Shown here piece by piece: positions 11,951 through 63,544 of a stretch of 63,544 nucleotides of DNA (position 1 is the first letter of the stretch; each line of letters starts with the position of its first letter). The DNA is taken from contig CANLII010000011.1 in assembly GCA_947491315.1 (NCBI GenBank), positions 1-63,544 on the forward strand. Direction: 5' to 3'. Below the pieces are notes generated by a model. It made no database searches and was not told the origin of the DNA. It worked only from the letters and a program-made list of their open reading frames with translations. Position numbers and translations under genes: made by a program. This stretch comes from Ignavibacteria bacterium. GTDB lineage: Bacteria; Bacteroidota; Ignavibacteria; Kapaibacteriales; UBA961.

Positions 11951-13029
11951 TCACTCTTCATAAAGACTGAGGAATATATATTCATTCCATTGCCAATGAT
12001 AAGAGAATATGCACCTTGAGAAAGATATCGTATATCGATTTGATGACGAATCATTCCATCTGCATCAACAACTAACTCTACATTATCATTCGTGATGATT
12101 CTACCCATCATGTCAATGATTTGAATTTCATATTGCTTTGAAATCATTCCCGGAAAAACAATTCCGAGTTGATTGCTCACCGGATTTGGTGAAATCATAA
12201 GTGTAGTTGATTCTACTTGTTCTTGAACTGAAACAAAGTTTTTGGATTCAATCATTTCTTGTATCTCTTTTGGAACATCGCTCAAGAAATCATATCCTGT
12301 TTGTTCTTCTATGGCATTGACCGTTGTGGAATATAATTTCCAGTCTGTAGTGCCGGAAGTATAGACCTCATTCTTCATCAATACCGCAATCACTTTTGTG
12401 GCAGGCGTGATGTCTGAGACTCTCTGGCCACTATCCAATATCACCACAATTTTCCAATATGAATCAGGAACGGAAACAACCGTATTGAGTCTTTTGGGAT
12501 TAGCACCGAATATTCCGCCAGCAACAATAAATAATTCCTTGTTTTGATCTTTACAAAGTCTCTCACATTCAAACTCCAGTGAAAGCCAAGTTTGCTGATT
12601 CAATGTTGGTATCTGAGGCATGATATTGGTGATAATGAAAGTCGATTTATTGTCCTCTGCAGTTGCGGTTCTTTCTTCGGAACGAACCATATGCCCACGG
12701 TCATATCCAGAATTGGTATAATCTGAATGTTTCACTCTGTAAAATTCAGCAGGCAAACTGGTGTCTTGTATGAAACTTCCCGAATATCGTGGGACTCCGC
12801 CAAACCATCCTCGATGCAAATTCCATGAAACCCAATTGGGCACATTGAGTTCGCTATTATAACTCAGCGCATACTGAGGTCTGATGATCAGATAATCATT
12901 CGAAGCATTATTATCAAGTGGAATTCCCAATTCCACATGAATGCTTTCACTATGAATCAGTTGTGCTTTTTGTTCATGTATTGAACAGAGAAATACTAAT
13001 AGTGCAAAAAGTATAAATGTTTTTTTCAT
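11947..13029 (-). CDS. T9SS-secreted DNA/RNA non-specific endonuclease
   Basis: Same family as the downstream gene and clearly its paralogue (shared SGYDRGHMVRSEERTAT; DRGH at 110-113, ligand Asn in TNIMPQIPTLNQQTW). A signal peptide (about 1-22) and a C-terminal T9SS type A sorting domain flank the nuclease: MISPNPVSNQLGIVFPG, then QIIDMMGRIIT, then SQGAYSLIIGNG. This copy is predicted to cross the outer membrane and be surface-attached or released, where it would degrade extracellular nucleic acid. It follows the M1 peptidase gene by 6 bp on the same strand and is coupled to the short copy. Confidence 0.92.
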   Translation of the reverse strand: MKKTFILFALLVFLCSIHEQKAQLIHSESIHVELGIPLDNNASNDYLIIRPQYALSYNSELNVPNWVSWNLHRGWFGGVPRYSGSFIQDTSLPAEFYRVKHSDYTNSGYDRGHMVRSEERTATAEDNKSTFIITNIMPQIPTLNQQTWLSLEFECERLCKDQNKELFIVAGGIFGANPKRLNTVVSVPDSYWKIVVILDSGQRVSDITPATKVIAVLMKNEVYTSGTTDWKLYSTTVNAIEEQTGYDFLSDVPKEIQEMIESKNFVSVQEQVESTTLMISPNPVSNQLGIVFPGMISKQYEIQIIDMMGRIITNDNVELVVDADGMIRHQIDIRYLSQGAYSLIIGNGMNIYSSVFMKSE

Positions 13030-13035
13030 GATGAT

Positions 13036-14994
13036 TTATTGTGTGATGATACAATTCGTTGATATAATTTGTTTGCCATTATTAATGGAGAGTACATATG
13101 TTCCTGAGGACACTCCGGATACATCTATTTGCATGTGTCCAGTCATAGCATTGCCATGACTCGATGCTTGTATATTCCATGTTTTGATTATCCCCCCTTT
13201 TAGATCTTGCATTGATAGAACCTGTGATTCATTAATAGAAACCGGATACTCAATTGTCAATTGTGATGTTCCAGGATTTGGATATACATATAATGCATTT
13301 GCAATAAATTCGGTGGAAGATTCAATCCCTGTAACTCTTGCAACTTGCACGAGTGATCTAAACATATTTCCTTGATTGACATTCATTGAACGGAATTCAG
13401 GGAGTGAGTCTATATTCAGAATTGTTTCTGGTCCGGAGAATGTGATTATTCGATACACAAAAGAATTGTCTGGTAATCTGAATCCGATTTGCAGTGGCAC
13501 TTGTTCATAGATGCCATAATCTTGCGCTTGGACCTGCATTATCTTCAATCGCATTGAGCGAATTCCTCCATTCAATGATGAAGCAGTATCTATCTGAATT
13601 CTTGGCCATCCTTTTCTTTTCACCCATTGATCAAAAAACCATTGCAGATCTCTCCCGGAAATATCTTCACATGCTTTTTGAAAATCTTCGGTGATTGCAT
13701 TGCCAAAGCGATGTCTTTCAAGATATGTTTGTAATGATGCAAAAAAGATGCTATCACCCAATTGATGTCTGAGCATGCCAAGTACCACGGCACCTTTCAC
13801 ATAAATTGTTCTGGGATAATTTGAAGAAGGGGCAGATCTCCCATATTTTTCGAGTGGCATCACGCCTTCTCTCGAAATAGTAGTTCCAAAATATTCCGTG
13901 ATTTTCGATTGCACATCTTGCACATAACCCGGCATACCTTTCAATTCCTCGGCCCACAGTGATTCGGAATAAGTGGCAAATGATTCTGAAAGCCAATGAT
14001 AGCCATAGTCTCTCGGTGTCACTTTGTCTCCAAACCATTGATGAGCAAGTTCATGCAAAATGGTGGAATTGGCGGAGTCTTTCTTCCGAACTATTGATTC
14101 GTCAATGCTGATCATGGTTTGATGTTCCATCGAACCAGTAGGAGTAAGAACATATCCAACGGTTTCAAACGGATATGGACCAAATGATCTTTCCAATGTC
14201 TTGATCATTCTTGGCAATTGTGAAAATGAAATGGCAGTTGCCAAACTGTCTTGCCTGATTGCATATACAGCATTTCTTTCCTCGCCAATGACATGTCTTT
14301 GAAATGAATCAACCGCAAATGTCATGAGATATGTCGACAAGGGTTTGTCAATCGCCCAAGTATAGCGTATGCCTTTTTCCATTGTATCTACAGACTGAAG
14401 AGCTCCATTGGAGACAGCCATCAATCCTTTTGGAACAAGGATGCGTGTTTTGAGCAGCGCTTTATCGGAAGGATGATCATAGCATGGAATCCAATGCTGA
14501 GTGGTGCCAACATAATTCGCAAAAAATCCTGTTCCTATTGCATATACTATTCGCTTGGTTGAATATACACCACCCCAAGAAATCGTTCTCGGAGGTTCTT
14601 TCCCCATCATGCCTTGATAGTGGACTTTCACTATTGTCGTATCACCTTTTTGAATAGACGAGGGAATATCAATGGCAAAATGCATCGTATCATCCTTGAT
14701 CTCACCCTTTCGAGTAAAACTGGATTTTGTGCCATTTACAGATACGGAATCAATTGTGAGATCGCGTAAATGTATCGGCAATATTCCTTTTGGTGATTCA
14801 TTCCATGCCACCTTGATGATGCAAAGTCCATTCTCAAGCTTGGGAAGAGGCGCTGAAAGCAAATCAATCGAAACATCATATTCGATGATATCGAATGGTT
14901 GAGGAATAAATTCCGTCGGCCTGGATATCTGCGCAGATGCCTCGAAAGAAACAAGACATGTAATGCAGAAAAGAATGTGTCGGAAGTATTTCAT
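13036..14994 (-). CDS. T9SS-secreted M1 family zinc aminopeptidase
   Basis: Signal peptide (about 1-22). The M1 fold shows the zinc site HELAH (His314, His318) with the third ligand Glu337 in GYHWLSESFATYSE, and the substrate-binding motif GSMEH (287-291), where most M1 enzymes have GxMEN. The exopeptidase-domain end (LQWFFDQWVKRKGWPRI) follows at about 455-471. A T9SS type A domain closes the protein (LYVYPNPGTSQLTIEYP at about 568, SSGTYVLSINNGKQI near the end). It would cleave N-terminal residues from peptides at the cell surface. The two secreted nuclease genes follow on the same strand, so this looks like a small extracellular-degradation operon. Confidence 0.93.
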   Translation of the reverse strand: MKYFRHILFCITCLVSFEASAQISRPTEFIPQPFDIIEYDVSIDLLSAPLPKLENGLCIIKVAWNESPKGILPIHLRDLTIDSVSVNGTKSSFTRKGEIKDDTMHFAIDIPSSIQKGDTTIVKVHYQGMMGKEPPRTISWGGVYSTKRIVYAIGTGFFANYVGTTQHWIPCYDHPSDKALLKTRILVPKGLMAVSNGALQSVDTMEKGIRYTWAIDKPLSTYLMTFAVDSFQRHVIGEERNAVYAIRQDSLATAISFSQLPRMIKTLERSFGPYPFETVGYVLTPTGSMEHQTMISIDESIVRKKDSANSTILHELAHQWFGDKVTPRDYGYHWLSESFATYSESLWAEELKGMPGYVQDVQSKITEYFGTTISREGVMPLEKYGRSAPSSNYPRTIYVKGAVVLGMLRHQLGDSIFFASLQTYLERHRFGNAITEDFQKACEDISGRDLQWFFDQWVKRKGWPRIQIDTASSLNGGIRSMRLKIMQVQAQDYGIYEQVPLQIGFRLPDNSFVYRIITFSGPETILNIDSLPEFRSMNVNQGNMFRSLVQVARVTGIESSTEFIANALYVYPNPGTSQLTIEYPVSINESQVLSMQDLKGGIIKTWNIQASSHGNAMTGHMQIDVSGVSSGTYVLSINNGKQIISTNCIITQ

Positions 14995-56550: not shown

Positions 56551-57579
56551 ATGTATAAAAGTCGTATTTCATTATTGGTTACTTGTTTTTTGGCCATTGT
56601 TCTTGGTTTGAATCTCCATGCTCAAAATGGAAATGAGCTTGCAATCAATTCAGGTAAAAAAACTGATAGTATAAAACCTACAATCATGATTGCAGAAGTG
56701 ACACTTGGCAAAGAGATGCCCTTGCAATTGATTGCAAAATCAGATGCAGCGATGGCCATTGCTTTAGGTGCGACTGATCGCTTCCGCTATACTCCTTTTG
56801 CTGTTCGAGATTCTGTTGCGGCAATATTCAAGAGTTTGAATGCAGAGCCAACTGCATTCAATGTAGGCCAGGAAATCAAAGCAGAAGTATTGCTATTTCT
56901 TCGGATTGATCAACTTGGAAACTTGCTTCGAGTTGAAATACAGGCAAAGGCAGGAAATCAGTATACACAAAGTGTTACCGGTATTGGTCTTGGACTTTTG
57001 AGATATAAAGACACGAATAATGTGACAGTCTATGAACCCACATTGATTGAAGCGATGCAAAGAGCGATGTGTATGATCACGGGAGATTCTAATCTCTATG
57101 CGCATGTTGAGGATAGTTCATATATGGTGTATCCTGCTGAGCCACTCACATTTTTGAGTATGGAATTTGATAATAAAAATCAGAAATCTTTATGGGCGAT
57201 ATTTCAGAATAATGAAGTCAATTCCTTTTATGGATTACAAGTTTTATTTGAGGCGGCATCAACTCTCAAGCATGTGATTCCAGTCGATTTGGATTCTAGA
57301 GATTCCGTCTATGCTTTGAAACAAGTTTATGGAGTTGAAAATCATATTCCATCTACGCAGACAGAGTTAAAAATGCTCTATGATGTAGGATTGACTTATG
57401 GGATTACGGGTCTTGTTGAAAAGACACCAGATGGTGCTGAACTTACATTGACATTACAAGAAATTACCTCGACAGGGACTTTGAAAAGAGTAAAATCATT
57501 AACTGCTGGTTTCTCCGAAGATTCTCTGGAAGGATTCAAAAAGACGGCGACCAAATTGCTTCGTAGGTTACTGCGATGA
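56551..57579 (+). CDS. Exported protein of unknown function (342 aa)
   Basis: A signal peptide (MYKSRISLLVTCFLAIVLGL, cleavage near HAQ) followed by about 320 residues with no recognised motif. The start is ATG 56551, and an upstream TTG is less likely. The body has a beta-alpha rhythm with repeated segments of the type FLRIDQLGNLLRVEIQAKAG and GLVEKTPDGAELTLTLQEIT, each a strand pair ending in a charged turn. The layout recalls exported TolB-like or GNA1162-like N-terminal domains (both halves read as sensor of an outer-membrane lipoprotein type), but I cannot name it. It overlaps the photolyase gene by 4 bp. Confidence 0.72.
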   Translation: MYKSRISLLVTCFLAIVLGLNLHAQNGNELAINSGKKTDSIKPTIMIAEVTLGKEMPLQLIAKSDAAMAIALGATDRFRYTPFAVRDSVAAIFKSLNAEPTAFNVGQEIKAEVLLFLRIDQLGNLLRVEIQAKAGNQYTQSVTGIGLGLLRYKDTNNVTVYEPTLIEAMQRAMCMITGDSNLYAHVEDSSYMVYPAEPLTFLSMEFDNKNQKSLWAIFQNNEVNSFYGLQVLFEAASTLKHVIPVDLDSRDSVYALKQVYGVENHIPSTQTELKMLYDVGLTYGITGLVEKTPDGAELTLTLQEITSTGTLKRVKSLTAGFSEDSLEGFKKTATKLLRRLLR

Positions 57580-58997
57580 GTGAAACATTTGCAATTGATC
57601 CGAGACGGATTCATGAGATCACAGATAGTGGCTATGTTCAGTTTTCCGGTGATTTTACTTGCAAGGAAGGAGCAGAGTGCATTGTATATTGGATGTCGCG
57701 AGATCAACGCATTCATGATAATTGGGCATTGATTGCTTGCATGAATCAATCGATCAAGCGAAGACTTCCAATCCGCATTCTTTTCACTTTGGTTCCTGAT
57801 TTTCTTGATGCAACATTGAGACAATATCATTTCATGTTGCATGGTTTGGAGGAAGTGCAAAAGCATGCTACCGCATTGGGTATTCCTTTTGATTTGATTG
57901 TAGATAAAGACCCGGGAAAGTCTGTCATTGCTTTTGCAGAAAAACATAAAGCAGGGATGATAATCACAGATTTTGATCCACTAAAAGTCCAATTGCAGTG
58001 GAAGCAAAGTGCGAGTATCGGCTTGCAATGTCCTTTCTATGAAGTGGATGCACATAATGTGATACCTGCTCGATTCATTTCTCAGAAAACAGAATTTGCA
58101 GCATATACATTGCGACCCAAAGTCCATAGATTATTGGATCAATTTCTAGTTCCCTTCCCTGATGTAGAATCGTTCAAGCAAATAAAGATTCATTCGGAGT
58201 GTAATTATTCAGCAGAAGACATATTAAAAAGTGTAAGTGTAAGAAAAGATATTCAACCTGTGAGTACTTTTTCTCCGGGACCCAATTCTGCCATGAATGC
58301 TTTGCGATCATTCATTGAACATAAGTTAGAAGCTTATGGCGAGAAAAGAAATGATCCCAATCTCGGTAATGTATCTGATATGTCGCCTTGGCTACATTTC
58401 GGTAATATTTCCTCACAGACAATAGCATTACACATCAAAGCACAGGAATGCAATAAGGAATCAATTGATTCATTTTTGGAAGAATTGATCGTTCGCAAAG
58501 AGCTTGCTGACAATTATTGTTTATATACTAGTGATTATGATAATTTCAATGGTTTTCATAATTGGGCGCAGACTTCACATAATGCCCATCGTTCTGATAT
58601 CCGTGAATATATATACAATGAAAGCCAATTTGAATTGGCTGAGACTCATGATCCTTTATGGAATGCGGCACAAATTGAAATGATGAATACCGGGAAAATG
58701 CATGGCTATATGCGTATGTATTGGGCTAAAAAAATTCTTGAATGGACTCAAACTCCTGAGGAAGCTCAATCGATAGCCATTTATTTGAATGATGCCTATG
58801 AATTGGATGGTCGGGATGCCAATGGATATACCGGTATTGCATGGAGTATTGGTGGCGTTCATGACAGAGCCTGGTTTGAAAGGCCAATTTTTGGAAAAAT
58901 TCGCTATATGAATGCCAATGGTTGTAAATCTAAATTTGATGTCAAACGCTATATTGCCAAGCACTCAGCAAATCTAGGTGGCACTACTTTATTCTAA
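57576..58997 (+). CDS. Class II CPD deoxyribodipyrimidine photolyase
   Basis: Repairs cyclobutane pyrimidine dimers using light and FAD. The 473-aa protein has an N-terminal photolyase domain (ECIVYWMSRDQRIHDNWALI; antenna region) and a C-terminal FAD-binding domain with LEELIVRKELADNYCLYT, then MHGYMRMYWAKKILEWTQTP, DGRDANGYTGIAWSIGGVHD and RAWFERPIFGKIRYMNANG, which are the class II signatures. Its ATG overlaps the stop of the exported unknown gene by 4 bp, forming a three-gene unit with the HisA-like gene. Confidence 0.95.
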   Translation: MSETFAIDPRRIHEITDSGYVQFSGDFTCKEGAECIVYWMSRDQRIHDNWALIACMNQSIKRRLPIRILFTLVPDFLDATLRQYHFMLHGLEEVQKHATALGIPFDLIVDKDPGKSVIAFAEKHKAGMIITDFDPLKVQLQWKQSASIGLQCPFYEVDAHNVIPARFISQKTEFAAYTLRPKVHRLLDQFLVPFPDVESFKQIKIHSECNYSAEDILKSVSVRKDIQPVSTFSPGPNSAMNALRSFIEHKLEAYGEKRNDPNLGNVSDMSPWLHFGNISSQTIALHIKAQECNKESIDSFLEELIVRKELADNYCLYTSDYDNFNGFHNWAQTSHNAHRSDIREYIYNESQFELAETHDPLWNAAQIEMMNTGKMHGYMRMYWAKKILEWTQTPEEAQSIAIYLNDAYELDGRDANGYTGIAWSIGGVHDRAWFERPIFGKIRYMNANGCKSKFDVKRYIAKHSANLGGTTLF

Positions 58998-59269: not shown

Positions 59270-62200
59270 TTATTGTATGATTCCGATATTGAATGGAATA
59301 GGAGCCGGATTGATACTGTTTCCTGTTGCATTCAAGAAGGCGATTCGAATGGTATTTGTTTGAATGATTCGTACTGAGGCAATGCTGATTCCTGCAACCA
59401 AGTCTTCTGTTGGAGATGCATGTGCTACTCCACCCACATTAGTTCCACTCACGGTCACATCACAGTATCCTATTCCACCATTTGGATTGAGTGTCGGGCA
59501 ATCAACAGTAATTGATTGTTGAATCACTATTGCATTTCCCCAAGACATTTGACCATTTGTATGAACTCGAAGTAACTGATTATCTGCGCTTGGTGGATTC
59601 AAAGGCAAGGTATATGTAATATTTGTTTGTTGTGATCCAGCTTTAATCATCGAATAGTGATTATCCGTAGGATAAGAACCGCTGTTTGATCCCGGTTCAA
59701 AAAAGTACATTCCATGAGCTACTCCATCATTGGAAGCGAGCCATATATCCATGTTACCAAGCACCATTGTATTTGCTGCGTTTATTGTCATGTTTCGAGT
59801 ATTTGAATTATTATTCCCCAATGAACCGATGGTATTTTCTGCAGTTGCTGAGAAAGTTAGTCCGGAACCGCCAAAGATGATTCCATTTGGTGAAGAGACA
59901 TTATGGTTTTTGCCCCCTAAAATTATTGATCTTGAACCGGTGACATTTGCATTATATGTACTCAATGCAAGGCCGAATTGACCTGATACAGAATTGTAAC
60001 TCCCTCCAATTATTGCCGAGTATTGTCCTCCAGAGTAATTATTTGTACCCCCTATTGCTATGGTACTTTCATTACCTGCTGTATTATAAACTCCATTTGC
60101 CATAGAATAAGCCCCAACTGCTGTATTTCCATATCCACCACCCGCAACAGAATATTGTCCGCTTGCTTGATTATTGAATCCTCCCAGTATTACTGACCCA
60201 TACCCTTGTGCACTATTTGATAGTCCCGAAACAACTGCTGATGCATTTCCTGATGCTGCATTATTGGCCCCACCTATTAATACGGCATGATTGCCTGATG
60301 CAACTTGATGATTAGCATTTCTACTAATTTGTAAATCTACTGCATTGATTCCTCTTTTCATTCCTCCAATGGGTGTATTATCGGGACTACTTGTCAATAA
60401 AGAACCAGTACCTTTTGGACTGATTGCGATATCGATATTGGACTCTGATCCTTTAGTTGAAAACGTATGCACAGGAATTGATGTATTGGGCCATTGAGTT
60501 GATCTACTTTCTCTAAAAAAGAGTAGGGTATCTCTTATTATGGGATGAAATACCCATTCACTACCATTCCAGGAAATTGTATGACCAATACTTGCTCCTA
60601 TACCGGATAATTTTGATAATGTAACAGAACCTGTTGCAAGCATATTGCTCTGTACCCTTCCTGTTCCAATACTCGGACTTGGATATGTACCGGTTAAGTC
60701 CCCACCTGCATTCCCGCTTGGGGGTAGTGAAGTTGGGATGACACCTGCCGCTAACTTTGATGCCGTAATCACTCCTATTGCTATTGTAGGATTGGGATAA
60801 AGTCCATTCAAATCTCCACTTGCAATTCCACTCGGAGGAAGTGAAGTTGGAATTACACCACTTGCAAGTTTGGCTGATGTAATGACTCCATTCCCGATTG
60901 TCGGATTCGGATATGTACCACTCAAATCTCCGCCCGCAGAACCACTCGGTGGAAGCGTTTCTGGAATCACACCACTCGCGATTTTTGATGAAGTTATTGC
61001 TCCATCCGCAATGCTTGGATTTGGATATGACCCACTCAAGTCACCACCCGCAGAGCCAGTTGGAGGAAGTGTGGTTGGAATCACGCCACTTGCGATTTTT
61101 GATGAAGTGATCGAACTGTCCCTCAGTTGACTCGTTCCAATCACATTATTCGCGATTGTCGGATTCGGATATGTCCCACTCAAATCTCCGCCCGCATTCC
61201 CACTCGGTGGAAGGTTTGTTGGAATAACACCACTGGCGATTTTCGCTGAAGTAATAGCTCCATCCGCGATGCTTGGATTCGGATATGTACCACTCAGATC
61301 ACCACCCGCATTCCCACTCGGTGGAAGGTTTGTTGGAATCACACCACTTGCGATTTTTGATAAAGTAATTGCTCCATCCGCGATGCTGGGATTTGGATAA
61401 TTACCACTCAAGTCACCACCCGCAGAGCCACTCGGCGGAAGTGAAGTTGGAATTACACCACTTGCAAGTTTGGCTGATGTAATGACTCCATTCGCGATTG
61501 TCGGATTCGGATAATTCCCACTCAGATCTCCGCCCGCAGAGCCACTCGGTGGAAGTGTTATGGGAATCACACCGCTCGCGATTTTTGATGAAGTTATTGC
61601 TCCATCCGCAATGCTTGGATTTGGATATGACCCACTCAAGTCACCACCCGCAGAGCCAGTTGGAGGAAGTGAAGTTGGAATAACACCACTCGCGATTTTT
61701 GCTGAAGTAACTGCTCCATCAGCGATTGTCGGATTCGGATATGACCCACTCAAATTTCCGCCCGCAGAACCACTTGGAGGAAGCGTTATGGGAATCACGC
61801 CACTTGCGATTTTTGATGAAGTAATTGAGCTGTCCTTTAGTTGACTCGTTCCAATCACATTATTCGCAATTTCAGGATTCGGATAATTTCCGCTCAGGTC
61901 ACCGCCTGCAGAACCACTCGGTGGGAGTGTTACGGGAATCACACCACTCGCAATTTTTGATGAAGTTATTGCTCCATCTGCGATGCTTGGATTCGGATAA
62001 TTCCCACTCAAGTCTCCGCTCGCAGAGCCACTCGGAGGAAGCGAAGTTGGAATCACACCGTTTGCAATTTTTGATGAAGTAATTGAGCTGTCCTTTAGTT
62101 GACTCGTGCCAATAACATTATTCGCGATTGTTGGATTCGGATATGACCCACTCAAGTCACCACCCGCAGAGCCACTCGGAGGAAGTGAAGTTGGAATCAC

Positions 62201-63544
62201 GCCACTCGCGATTTTTGATGAAGTGATCGAACTGTCTTTTACTTGACTCGTTCCAATTACATTATTTGCGATTGTCGGATTCGGATATGTCCCACTCAGA
62301 TCACCACCCGCATTCCCGCTCGGTGGAAGGTTTGTTGGAATCACGCCACTCGCAAGTTTTGATGAAGTAATCACTCCATCCGCAATTGTCGGATTCGGAT
62401 ATGTCCCACTTAAGTCTCCCCCCGCAGAACCACTCGGCGGAAGTGAATTTGGAATTACGCCACTCGCAATTTTTGATGAAGTAATCGAACTGTCTTTTAC
62501 TTGACTCGTTCCAATCACATTATTCGCGATGCCAGGATTTGGATAACTACCACTCAGATCTCCACCCGCATTACCACTCGGTGGAAGGTTTGTCGGAATC
62601 ACACCGATTGCGATTTTTGATGAAGTGATCGAACTGTCCCTCAGTTGACTCGTTCCAATCACATTATTCGCGATTGTTGGATTCGGATATGACCCACTCA
62701 AGTCACCACCCGCAGAGCCACTCGGAGGAAGTGTTATCGGAATCACACCGCTTGCTATTTTTGATGAAGTGATCGAACTGTCTTTTACTTGACTCGTTCC
62801 AATTACATTATTCGCGATACTTGGATTCGGATAATTCCCATTCAAATCTCCACCCGCAGAACCACTCGGTGGAAGTGTGGTTGGAATCACACCAGTCGCG
62901 ATTTTCGCTGATGTGATAGTTCCATTCGCGATTGTTGGATTCGGATAATTTCCACTCAAATCACCCCCCGCAGAGCCACTTGGTGGAAGGTTTGTTGGAA
63001 TCACACCACTTGCGATTTTGGCTGATGTAATTGCTCCATCCGCGATGCTTGGATTCGGATAATTCCCACTCAAGTCTCCGCCCGCTGAGCCACTCGGTGG
63101 AAGTGATGTCGGAATAACACCACTCGCGATTTTCGCTGAAGTAATTGCTCCATTCGCGATGCTCGGATTTGGATAATTTCCACTCAAATCTCCGCCCGCA
63201 GAACCACTCGGTGGAAGCGTAACTGGAATCACACCACTTGCGATTTTTGATGATGTAATTACTCCATCCGCGATGCTTGGATTTGGATAATTACCACTCA
63301 AATCTCCGCCGGCTGAGCCACTCGGAGGGAGTGTTATGGGAATCACGCCGCTCGCGAGTTTTGAAGAGGTTATACCTCCATCAGCGATTGTCGGATTTGG
63401 ATAATTTCCACTCAAGTCACCTCCCGCAGTGCCACTCGGTGGAAGTGTGGTTGGAATTACGCCACTTGCAATTTTTGAAGATGTAATTGAGCTGTCCTTT
63501 AGTTGACTCGTTCCAATCACATTATTCGCGATTGTTGGATTCGG
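59270..63544 (-). CDS. Giant repeat surface/fiber-like protein, 5' end beyond window
   Basis: The frame is open from the right edge to the TAA at 59270, at least 1424 residues, and no real start is inside the window. From the edge to about 60638 it consists of tandem units GVIPxxLPPSGxAGGDLSG-YPNPxI (23 complete units plus part of one more) in short (38 aa) and long (48 aa) forms. After a linker (TGSVTLSKLSGIG, WNGSEWVFHP) comes a head region of about 200 residues built from S-x-x-GG-x-N-x-ASG type repeats (SAQGYGSVILGGFNNQASG), resembling the YadA/Hep_Hag left-handed beta-roll. The C-terminal about 120 residues have a tail-fibre-like look and two Cys (DCPTLNP, IGYCDV). No membrane anchor or T9SS domain is visible. 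Probably an extended surface adhesin or fibre. Function unknown. Confidence 0.85.
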   Translation of the reverse strand, partial: PNPTIANNVIGTSQLKDSSITSSKIASGVIPTTLPPSGTAGGDLSGNYPNPTIADGGITSSKLASGVIPITLPPSGSAGGDLSGNYPNPSIADGVITSSKIASGVIPVTLPPSGSAGGDLSGNYPNPSIANGAITSAKIASGVIPTSLPPSGSAGGDLSGNYPNPSIADGAITSAKIASGVIPTNLPPSGSAGGDLSGNYPNPTIANGTITSAKIATGVIPTTLPPSGSAGGDLNGNYPNPSIANNVIGTSQVKDSSITSSKIASGVIPITLPPSGSAGGDLSGSYPNPTIANNVIGTSQLRDSSITSSKIAIGVIPTNLPPSGNAGGDLSGSYPNPGIANNVIGTSQVKDSSITSSKIASGVIPNSLPPSGSAGGDLSGTYPNPTIADGVITSSKLASGVIPTNLPPSGNAGGDLSGTYPNPTIANNVIGTSQVKDSSITSSKIASGVIPTSLPPSGSAGGDLSGSYPNPTIANNVIGTSQLKDSSITSSKIANGVIPTSLPPSGSASGDLSGNYPNPSIADGAITSSKIASGVIPVTLPPSGSAGGDLSGNYPNPEIANNVIGTSQLKDSSITSSKIASGVIPITLPPSGSAGGNLSGSYPNPTIADGAVTSAKIASGVIPTSLPPTGSAGGDLSGSYPNPSIADGAITSSKIASGVIPITLPPSGSAGGDLSGNYPNPTIANGVITSAKLASGVIPTSLPPSGSAGGDLSGNYPNPSIADGAITLSKIASGVIPTNLPPSGNAGGDLSGTYPNPSIADGAITSAKIASGVIPTNLPPSGNAGGDLSGTYPNPTIANNVIGTSQLRDSSITSSKIASGVIPTTLPPTGSAGGDLSGSYPNPSIADGAITSSKIASGVIPETLPPSGSAGGDLSGTYPNPTIGNGVITSAKLASGVIPTSLPPSGIASGDLNGLYPNPTIAIGVITASKLAAGVIPTSLPPSGNAGGDLTGTYPSPSIGTGRVQSNMLATGSVTLSKLSGIGASIGHTISWNGSEWVFHPIIRDTLLFFRESRSTQWPNTSIPVHTFSTKGSESNIDIAISPKGTGSLLTSSPDNTPIGGMKRGINAVDLQISRNANHQVASGNHAVLIGGANNAASGNASAVVSGLSNSAQGYGSVILGGFNNQASGQYSVAGGGYGNTAVGAYSMANGVYNTAGNESTIAIGGTNNYSGGQYSAIIGGSYNSVSGQFGLALSTYNANVTGSRSIILGGKNHNVSSPNGIIFGGSGLTFSATAENTIGSLGNNNSNTRNMTINAANTMVLGNMDIWLASNDGVAHGMYFFEPGSNSGSYPTDNHYSMIKAGSQQTNITYTLPLNPPSADNQLLRVHTNGQMSWGNAIVIQQSITVDCPTLNPNGGIGYCDVTVSGTNVGGVAHASPTEDLVAGISIASVRIIQTNTIRIAFLNATGNSINPAPIPFNIGIIQ
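60638..63544 (-). repeat. In-frame tandem repeat array of 114-bp and 144-bp units
   Basis: Sixteen short (114 bp) and seven long (144 bp) complete units, with a partial unit at the window edge. Long units carry an extra decapeptide NNVIGTSQxxDSS-type insert before ITSSK. Unit starts can be followed by ASGVIP. Third-position and a few first-position differences distinguish copies, while GGDLSG and YPNP are nearly invariant. Confidence 0.9.

Follow-up and report, generated by a model that had tools for sequence, protein, structure and literature searches.

The mosaic adhesive trimer (MAT) fibres of Bdellovibrio bacteriovorus bind prey. MAT proteins consist of a signal peptide, a conserved beta-rich domain of about 130 aa, a fibre and an exchangeable C-terminal tip, and their C-termini have been detected on the surface of the predator (PMC10769870). 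The authors of that work proposed that the MAT N-domain sits at the cell, where it binds a surface element not yet identified (PMC10769870). Here, we describe a fibre gene of Candidatus Kapaibacterium that can be compared with these proteins. It ends in the window, i.e., the whole stretch of DNA that was analysed, which has 63,544 nucleotides and is the entire contig C11 of a 2.3-Mb genome in 49 contigs. What is new here is a recurrent pairing of such fibres with a small gene on the same strand, the GFW gene.

The fibre gene and its parts

An earlier note on this DNA had described a frame at the end of the window, coding for at least 1424 residues. This proved correct, and the frame is open to the contig end. 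The features of the locus are the following:

59270..63544, minus strand: fibre gene, C-terminal 1424 residues; open frame whose 5' side runs off the contig end
60662..63544, minus strand: stalk of 23 DUF5907 (GGDLSG-YPNP) units with 38- or 48-residue spacing, from PF19264 and the unit count
59819..60361, minus strand: YadA/UspA1-like beta-roll head with a 15-residue period, from the PDB 3pr7 match, AF2 and motif positions
59579..59818, minus strand: neck between head and tip (..YTLPL..NQLL..GQMSWG..), from invariant columns in the alignment; low AF2 confidence
59273..59578, minus strand: C-terminal beta-domain of ~100 residues, the proposed tip, from alignments; common to the paralogous fibre on contig C37
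59074..59150, plus strand: tRNA-His, outside the fibre; conserved flank of the fibre 3' end within the genus
57576..58997, plus strand: photolyase-like gene (named by eye from its sequence), outside the fibre; conserved flank within the genus

The stop codon of the fibre is 120 bp away from tRNA-His. The upstream sequence, which the earlier note had wanted checked for the N-terminus and a signal peptide, was located on contig C37 of the same genome and is intact in two sister genomes. The N-terminal 468 residues are encoded by L025:7735-9138 (+), an open frame that closes C37 and comprises a signal-peptide-like start, a beta-domain of ~110 residues (the N-domain), a linker and four DUF5907 units. 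Signal peptides were called by eye. Within the window genome, the DUF5907 repeat was found above the family cut-off on contigs C11 and C37 only. The end of C37 does not overlap exactly with that of C11; the two pieces, which may have further repeat units between them, were joined as one gene by synteny with intact frames in two sister genomes. In G004 (L056), a single 713-aa frame lies between the tRNA-His/photolyase side, as on C11, and the LuxR-OmpA-T9SS-paralogue side, as on C37. In G005 (L059), a single frame of 1011 aa at the syntenic place contains all parts. The order in the intact sister genomes is signal peptide, ~110-residue beta-domain, stalk, head and tip. Provided that the two pieces do not overlap, the window fibre is predicted to have at least about 1890 residues. 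A single-protein scan returned two close relatives, in the MAGs UBA961 (Ignavibacteria bacterium) and Candidatus Kapaibacterium JZJ.24.

The frame had been said to consist mainly of GGDLSG-YPNP repeats. Indeed, DUF5907 (PF19264) was matched in 20 stretches of the 1424-aa frame (E 1.6e-72), and the pattern count gave 23 units in the window. Besides DUF5907, Pfam returned just one weak beta-roll match in this frame, and a literature search on DUF5907 found no paper. Pattern counts in four sister genomes gave at least 27, 6, 0 (one degenerate unit) and at least 25 units. Judged from these sequences, sister species differ in the length of the stalk, which has 0-1 units at one extreme and at least 27 at the other, a fast change in which the ends are kept; G000 and G005 are 67% identical over the N-terminal 150 residues and 80% over head and tip. 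The mean nucleotide identity of the units is 0.79 within G000 and 0.66 between G000 and G003. Units that are alike within a genome are as expected for recent repeat turnover, and gain and loss of units would set the length of the stalk.

The stalk also resembles phage tail fibres, with phage records mostly at 25-30% identity and tail-fibre matches in PHROGs, as it would if the fibre belonged to a phage or a phage-derived particle (prophage, tailocin or contractile injection system). Such an origin is highly improbable in our view, considering that the protein has a signal peptide, that sister species carry the gene at the corresponding position next to tRNA-His, and that several N-domain fibres are dispersed over the window genome. 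The earlier note had pointed out a tail-fibre-like stalk but no phage genes around it, and we came to the same result: no phage genes were seen among the genes flanking the C-terminal side of the fibre (photolyase-like, tRNA-His and other ordinary genes), and the flanking genes of the window and of L056-L061 contain no virion gene module.

The GG-N-ASG region, previously taken for a YadA-like head, has a 15-residue period (about residues 1091-1210) and matches the head of Moraxella UspA1 (PDB 3pr7) with an E-value of 9e-12, in support of that assignment; the Pfam YadA-head family gave no match to it. AF2 modelled the head as a beta-roll, for the most part with a pLDDT close to 90, and the last ~100 residues as a separate beta-domain (pLDDT about 80). 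The C-terminal piece had been described as having neither a membrane barrel nor a T9SS sorting domain, and Pfam searches of the window fibre at E up to 1 returned no YadA anchor, Por_Secre_tail or Peptidase_S74. A PDB sequence search with the tip profile gave nothing significant. In a VIA-align search with the head/tip model, the matches were filled by beta-helices over the head, and the tip was hardly covered. The tip domain was found neither in phage records (tblastn) nor in PHROGs. A 160-aa phage protein encoded directly after a capsid-like gene on an IMG/VR contig (L177:5728-6210) contains a relative of the fibre C-terminal domain, with 37% identity over 71 aa. This domain may therefore be used on virions too. 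Short phage proteins in BFVD matched the head/tip model.

The N-domain and its relation to MAT proteins

A profile of the N-domain (A1) was built from eight N-domains of the window genome and three sister genomes. When genomes of the phylum were searched with it, the N-domain was found in 60 of 198 (E 1e-4 or better). MAT-like fibres are thus not confined to Bdellovibrio but occur in roughly one third of the genomes sampled from this phylum. NCBIfam NF053851 (Bdello_MAT_N) was matched by 44 of the 46 N-domains of relatives, with a best E-value of 1.6e-10, and other families gave single marginal matches only. The window fibre scored 18.4 bits against NF053851 with the 468-aa piece and 23.4 bits with the N-domain alone, the curated cut-off of NCBI being 60. 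The window N-domain is thus a relative of NF053851 that falls outside the curated subfamily. Pfam returned nothing for the N-domain, and a PDB sequence search with its profile nothing significant. The AF2 model of the N-domain is mostly beta after the signal peptide, at modest confidence (pLDDT 68), and Foldseek found generic beta-sandwich matches to it, with a query TM of at most 0.39 among the matches listed. Within the window genome, the N-domain is joined to different ends in L030 (537 aa), L026 (2879 aa) and the window fibre.

These results change how the order of the parts is to be understood. The earlier note had regarded the fibre as an inverted YadA. The order is indeed opposite to that of YadA-type adhesins, but the frame of an inverted YadA did not hold, as a signal peptide and a MAT-related N-domain are present at the other end. 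The MAT order, with N-terminal anchoring and a distal C-terminal tip, matches the order observed here, and the C-terminal head is therefore no anomaly. We give hardly any credence to a true inverted trimeric autotransporter, that is, a YadA-family adhesin with swapped ends and some unrecognised C-terminal translocator. The match of the head to UspA1 speaks for it; on the other hand, the fibre has no YadA anchor, the model of its C-terminal domain shows a small beta-domain and not a coiled-coil neck with part of a barrel, and the N-terminal half has already largely refuted this explanation. By analogy with MAT proteins, the window fibre is probably anchored N-terminally with its tip outward. 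From the same analogy we infer trimerisation and a surface location, the structure models used here being single-chain.

Recurrent association of fibre genes with GFW genes

In the fetched regions, the small genes beside fibres share a signal-peptide-like start, a GFW domain (consensus SV..SGG...T.GQ..IG...GFW, alignment A4) and usually an end that resembles a T9SS sorting domain. The GFW domain is an undescribed domain of ~50 residues, for which Pfam has no entry. In the 46 sampled regions, a fibre and a GFW gene were direct neighbours 27 times and hardly ever stood at any other gene offset. In genome counts that are not independent events, the genomes being related, and that were made with a GFW profile seeded from fibre neighbours, GFW was present in 24 of the 198 genomes, all within the 60 with the N-domain (hypergeometric 7e-15); the other 36 of the 60 had no GFW match. 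As many as 32 of the 43 GFW matches lay at most 1 kb from a fibre, all on the same strand, where 0.35 were expected by chance placement, and the two genes came in either order in the counted cases. Five further GFW genes abut fibres that were detected only via the C-terminal domain. Among order-level genomes outside the profile, GFW was found within 1 kb of a fibre in at least 39 of 63 cases, again always on the same strand. As a control free of seeding, we used a sorting-domain profile made from the window genome alone, containing no GFW sequences: 19 of 64 adjacent same-strand genes were positive, whereas at distances of 3 and above this was the case for 5 of 179 (Fisher 1.5e-8). Fibre and GFW genes are thus recurrently associated.

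The window genome contains SprA and 81 sorting-domain matches. Its 301-aa GFW partner matched Por_Secre_tail with 32.4 bits (cut-off 27), and the 189-aa partner on contig C9 matched the FlgD_ig model at cut-off and Por_Secre_tail weakly. An association through a shared surface-protein regulon only, with a MAT-like surface fibre and GFW/T9SS genes that are neighbours and make no contact, would fit the large number of T9SS cargo genes, and fibre-GFW contact is a prediction. However, it is one specific ~50-residue domain that recurs beside the fibres, not any T9SS cargo, and in every counted case it is encoded on the strand of the fibre and no more than 1 kb away, in either order. We consider an association of this kind unlikely.

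The GFW gene on C37 (L025:3707-4612) has two overlaps, one with the end of a paralogous fibre, which has the same tip domain as the window fibre, and one with the start of an OmpA-type gene (L025:4594-6651). A LuxR-type gene on the other strand lies between this operon and the start of the window fibre. The window fibre is not adjacent to the GFW gene, which is a few genes off, beside the paralogue. It could be argued that the OmpA-type outer-membrane protein, not GFW, is the translocator or anchor of a MAT-like fibre, since three genomes of the genus have its gene in the overlapping operon with the paralogous fibre and GFW, and since in other families, too, GFW is followed by the beginning of a similar gene. 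Yet the OmpA-type gene goes with the 300-aa GFW form and is absent from the next position in most other fibre-GFW pairs, making this role quite improbable.

Several further arrangements were observed. On contig C9 (L026:8253-17508), a GFW gene is followed after about 47 bp by the 2879-aa fibre, which has the same N-domain but a very different stalk, with repeats of the TTTGTLNAG type. The longer GFW partners (L025:3707-4612, and 298-318 aa in L096, L118, L167 and L171) have extra residues between the GFW and sorting domains; in the L025 partner, this insert is cohesin-like (Pfam E 0.0064, below cut-off). Several of the longer partners accompany fibres bearing the C-terminal domain of the window fibre. 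On contig C5 of G003 (L063:3-11197), fibres with YadA-like GG-N repeats alternate with proteins of 343 and 361 aa that end like phage tail-collar proteins (ETRP-NI-V-Y-I-R). The window itself encodes two more T9SS sorting-domain proteins, at 11980-12195 (-) and 13045-13287 (-).

Proposed mechanism and comparison with known systems

We favour, at somewhat better than even chances, a MAT-type mosaic fibre on the cell surface, with the GFW protein as surface anchor and perhaps export partner, the gene pairing being what points to binding and export. The signal peptide would send the fibre through Sec. By homology, the mature protein begins with the MAT-related beta-domain, followed by the repeat stalk, the YadA-like head and the tip. 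As presumed from MAT fibres, three chains would assemble with the N-domain at the cell surface, and head and tip would point outward and bind a target. As a small T9SS substrate, the GFW protein would leave the cell through SprA/PorV, become fixed on the surface and, as the pairing suggests, bind the N-domain of the fibre; it may also take the CTD-less fibre with it through the outer membrane. The single GFW protein of the window locus could serve both the paralogous and the window fibre. The separation of the window fibre from that GFW gene and the low NF053851 score of the window N-domain count against this model. Since 36 of the 60 N-domain genomes have no GFW and since, to our knowledge, Bdellovibrio has no T9SS, GFW cannot be a universal anchor.

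In a bolder version, which we regard as rather doubtful, the T9SS would carry CTD-less fibres in company: a small GFW adaptor bearing the sorting domain would bind the N-domain, escort the fibre through the translocon and stay as its surface anchor. If true, escort by GFW would be a partner-dependent T9SS export route. Among the papers searched, none dealt with T9SS co-export of a CTD-less protein and none with the T9SS and tail-fibre proteins together. Under the favoured mechanism, some T9SS substrates are predicted to exist to display proteins without a sorting signal, and the GFW/T9SS neighbour is a concrete, testable candidate, in a T9SS-bearing phylum, for the surface element missing from the MAT study (PMC10769870).

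Compared to known systems, the window fibre shares a repeat stalk and a distal C-terminal end with phage tail fibres carrying DUF5907-like repeats, but it is predicted to be a secreted bacterial protein and has no virion genes around it. With the trimeric autotransporter adhesins YadA and UspA1 it shares the head repeats, as judged by the UspA1 match; it differs in having no C-terminal barrel, in carrying the head toward the C-terminal side and in being, presumably, anchored by the other end. The GFW partner resembles T9SS surface substrates with a type A CTD in its signal peptide and, usually, its sorting domain, whereas the fibre itself has no sorting domain. MAT fibres differ from the window fibre in that its NF053851 score is far under the curated cut-off, a DUF5907 stalk and a YadA-like head replace the published tips, the organism is not a known predator, and a GFW/T9SS neighbour gene is present here. 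Both, however, have a signal peptide, a related N-terminal beta-domain, a long beta stalk, exchangeable C-terminal tips and several copies per genome.
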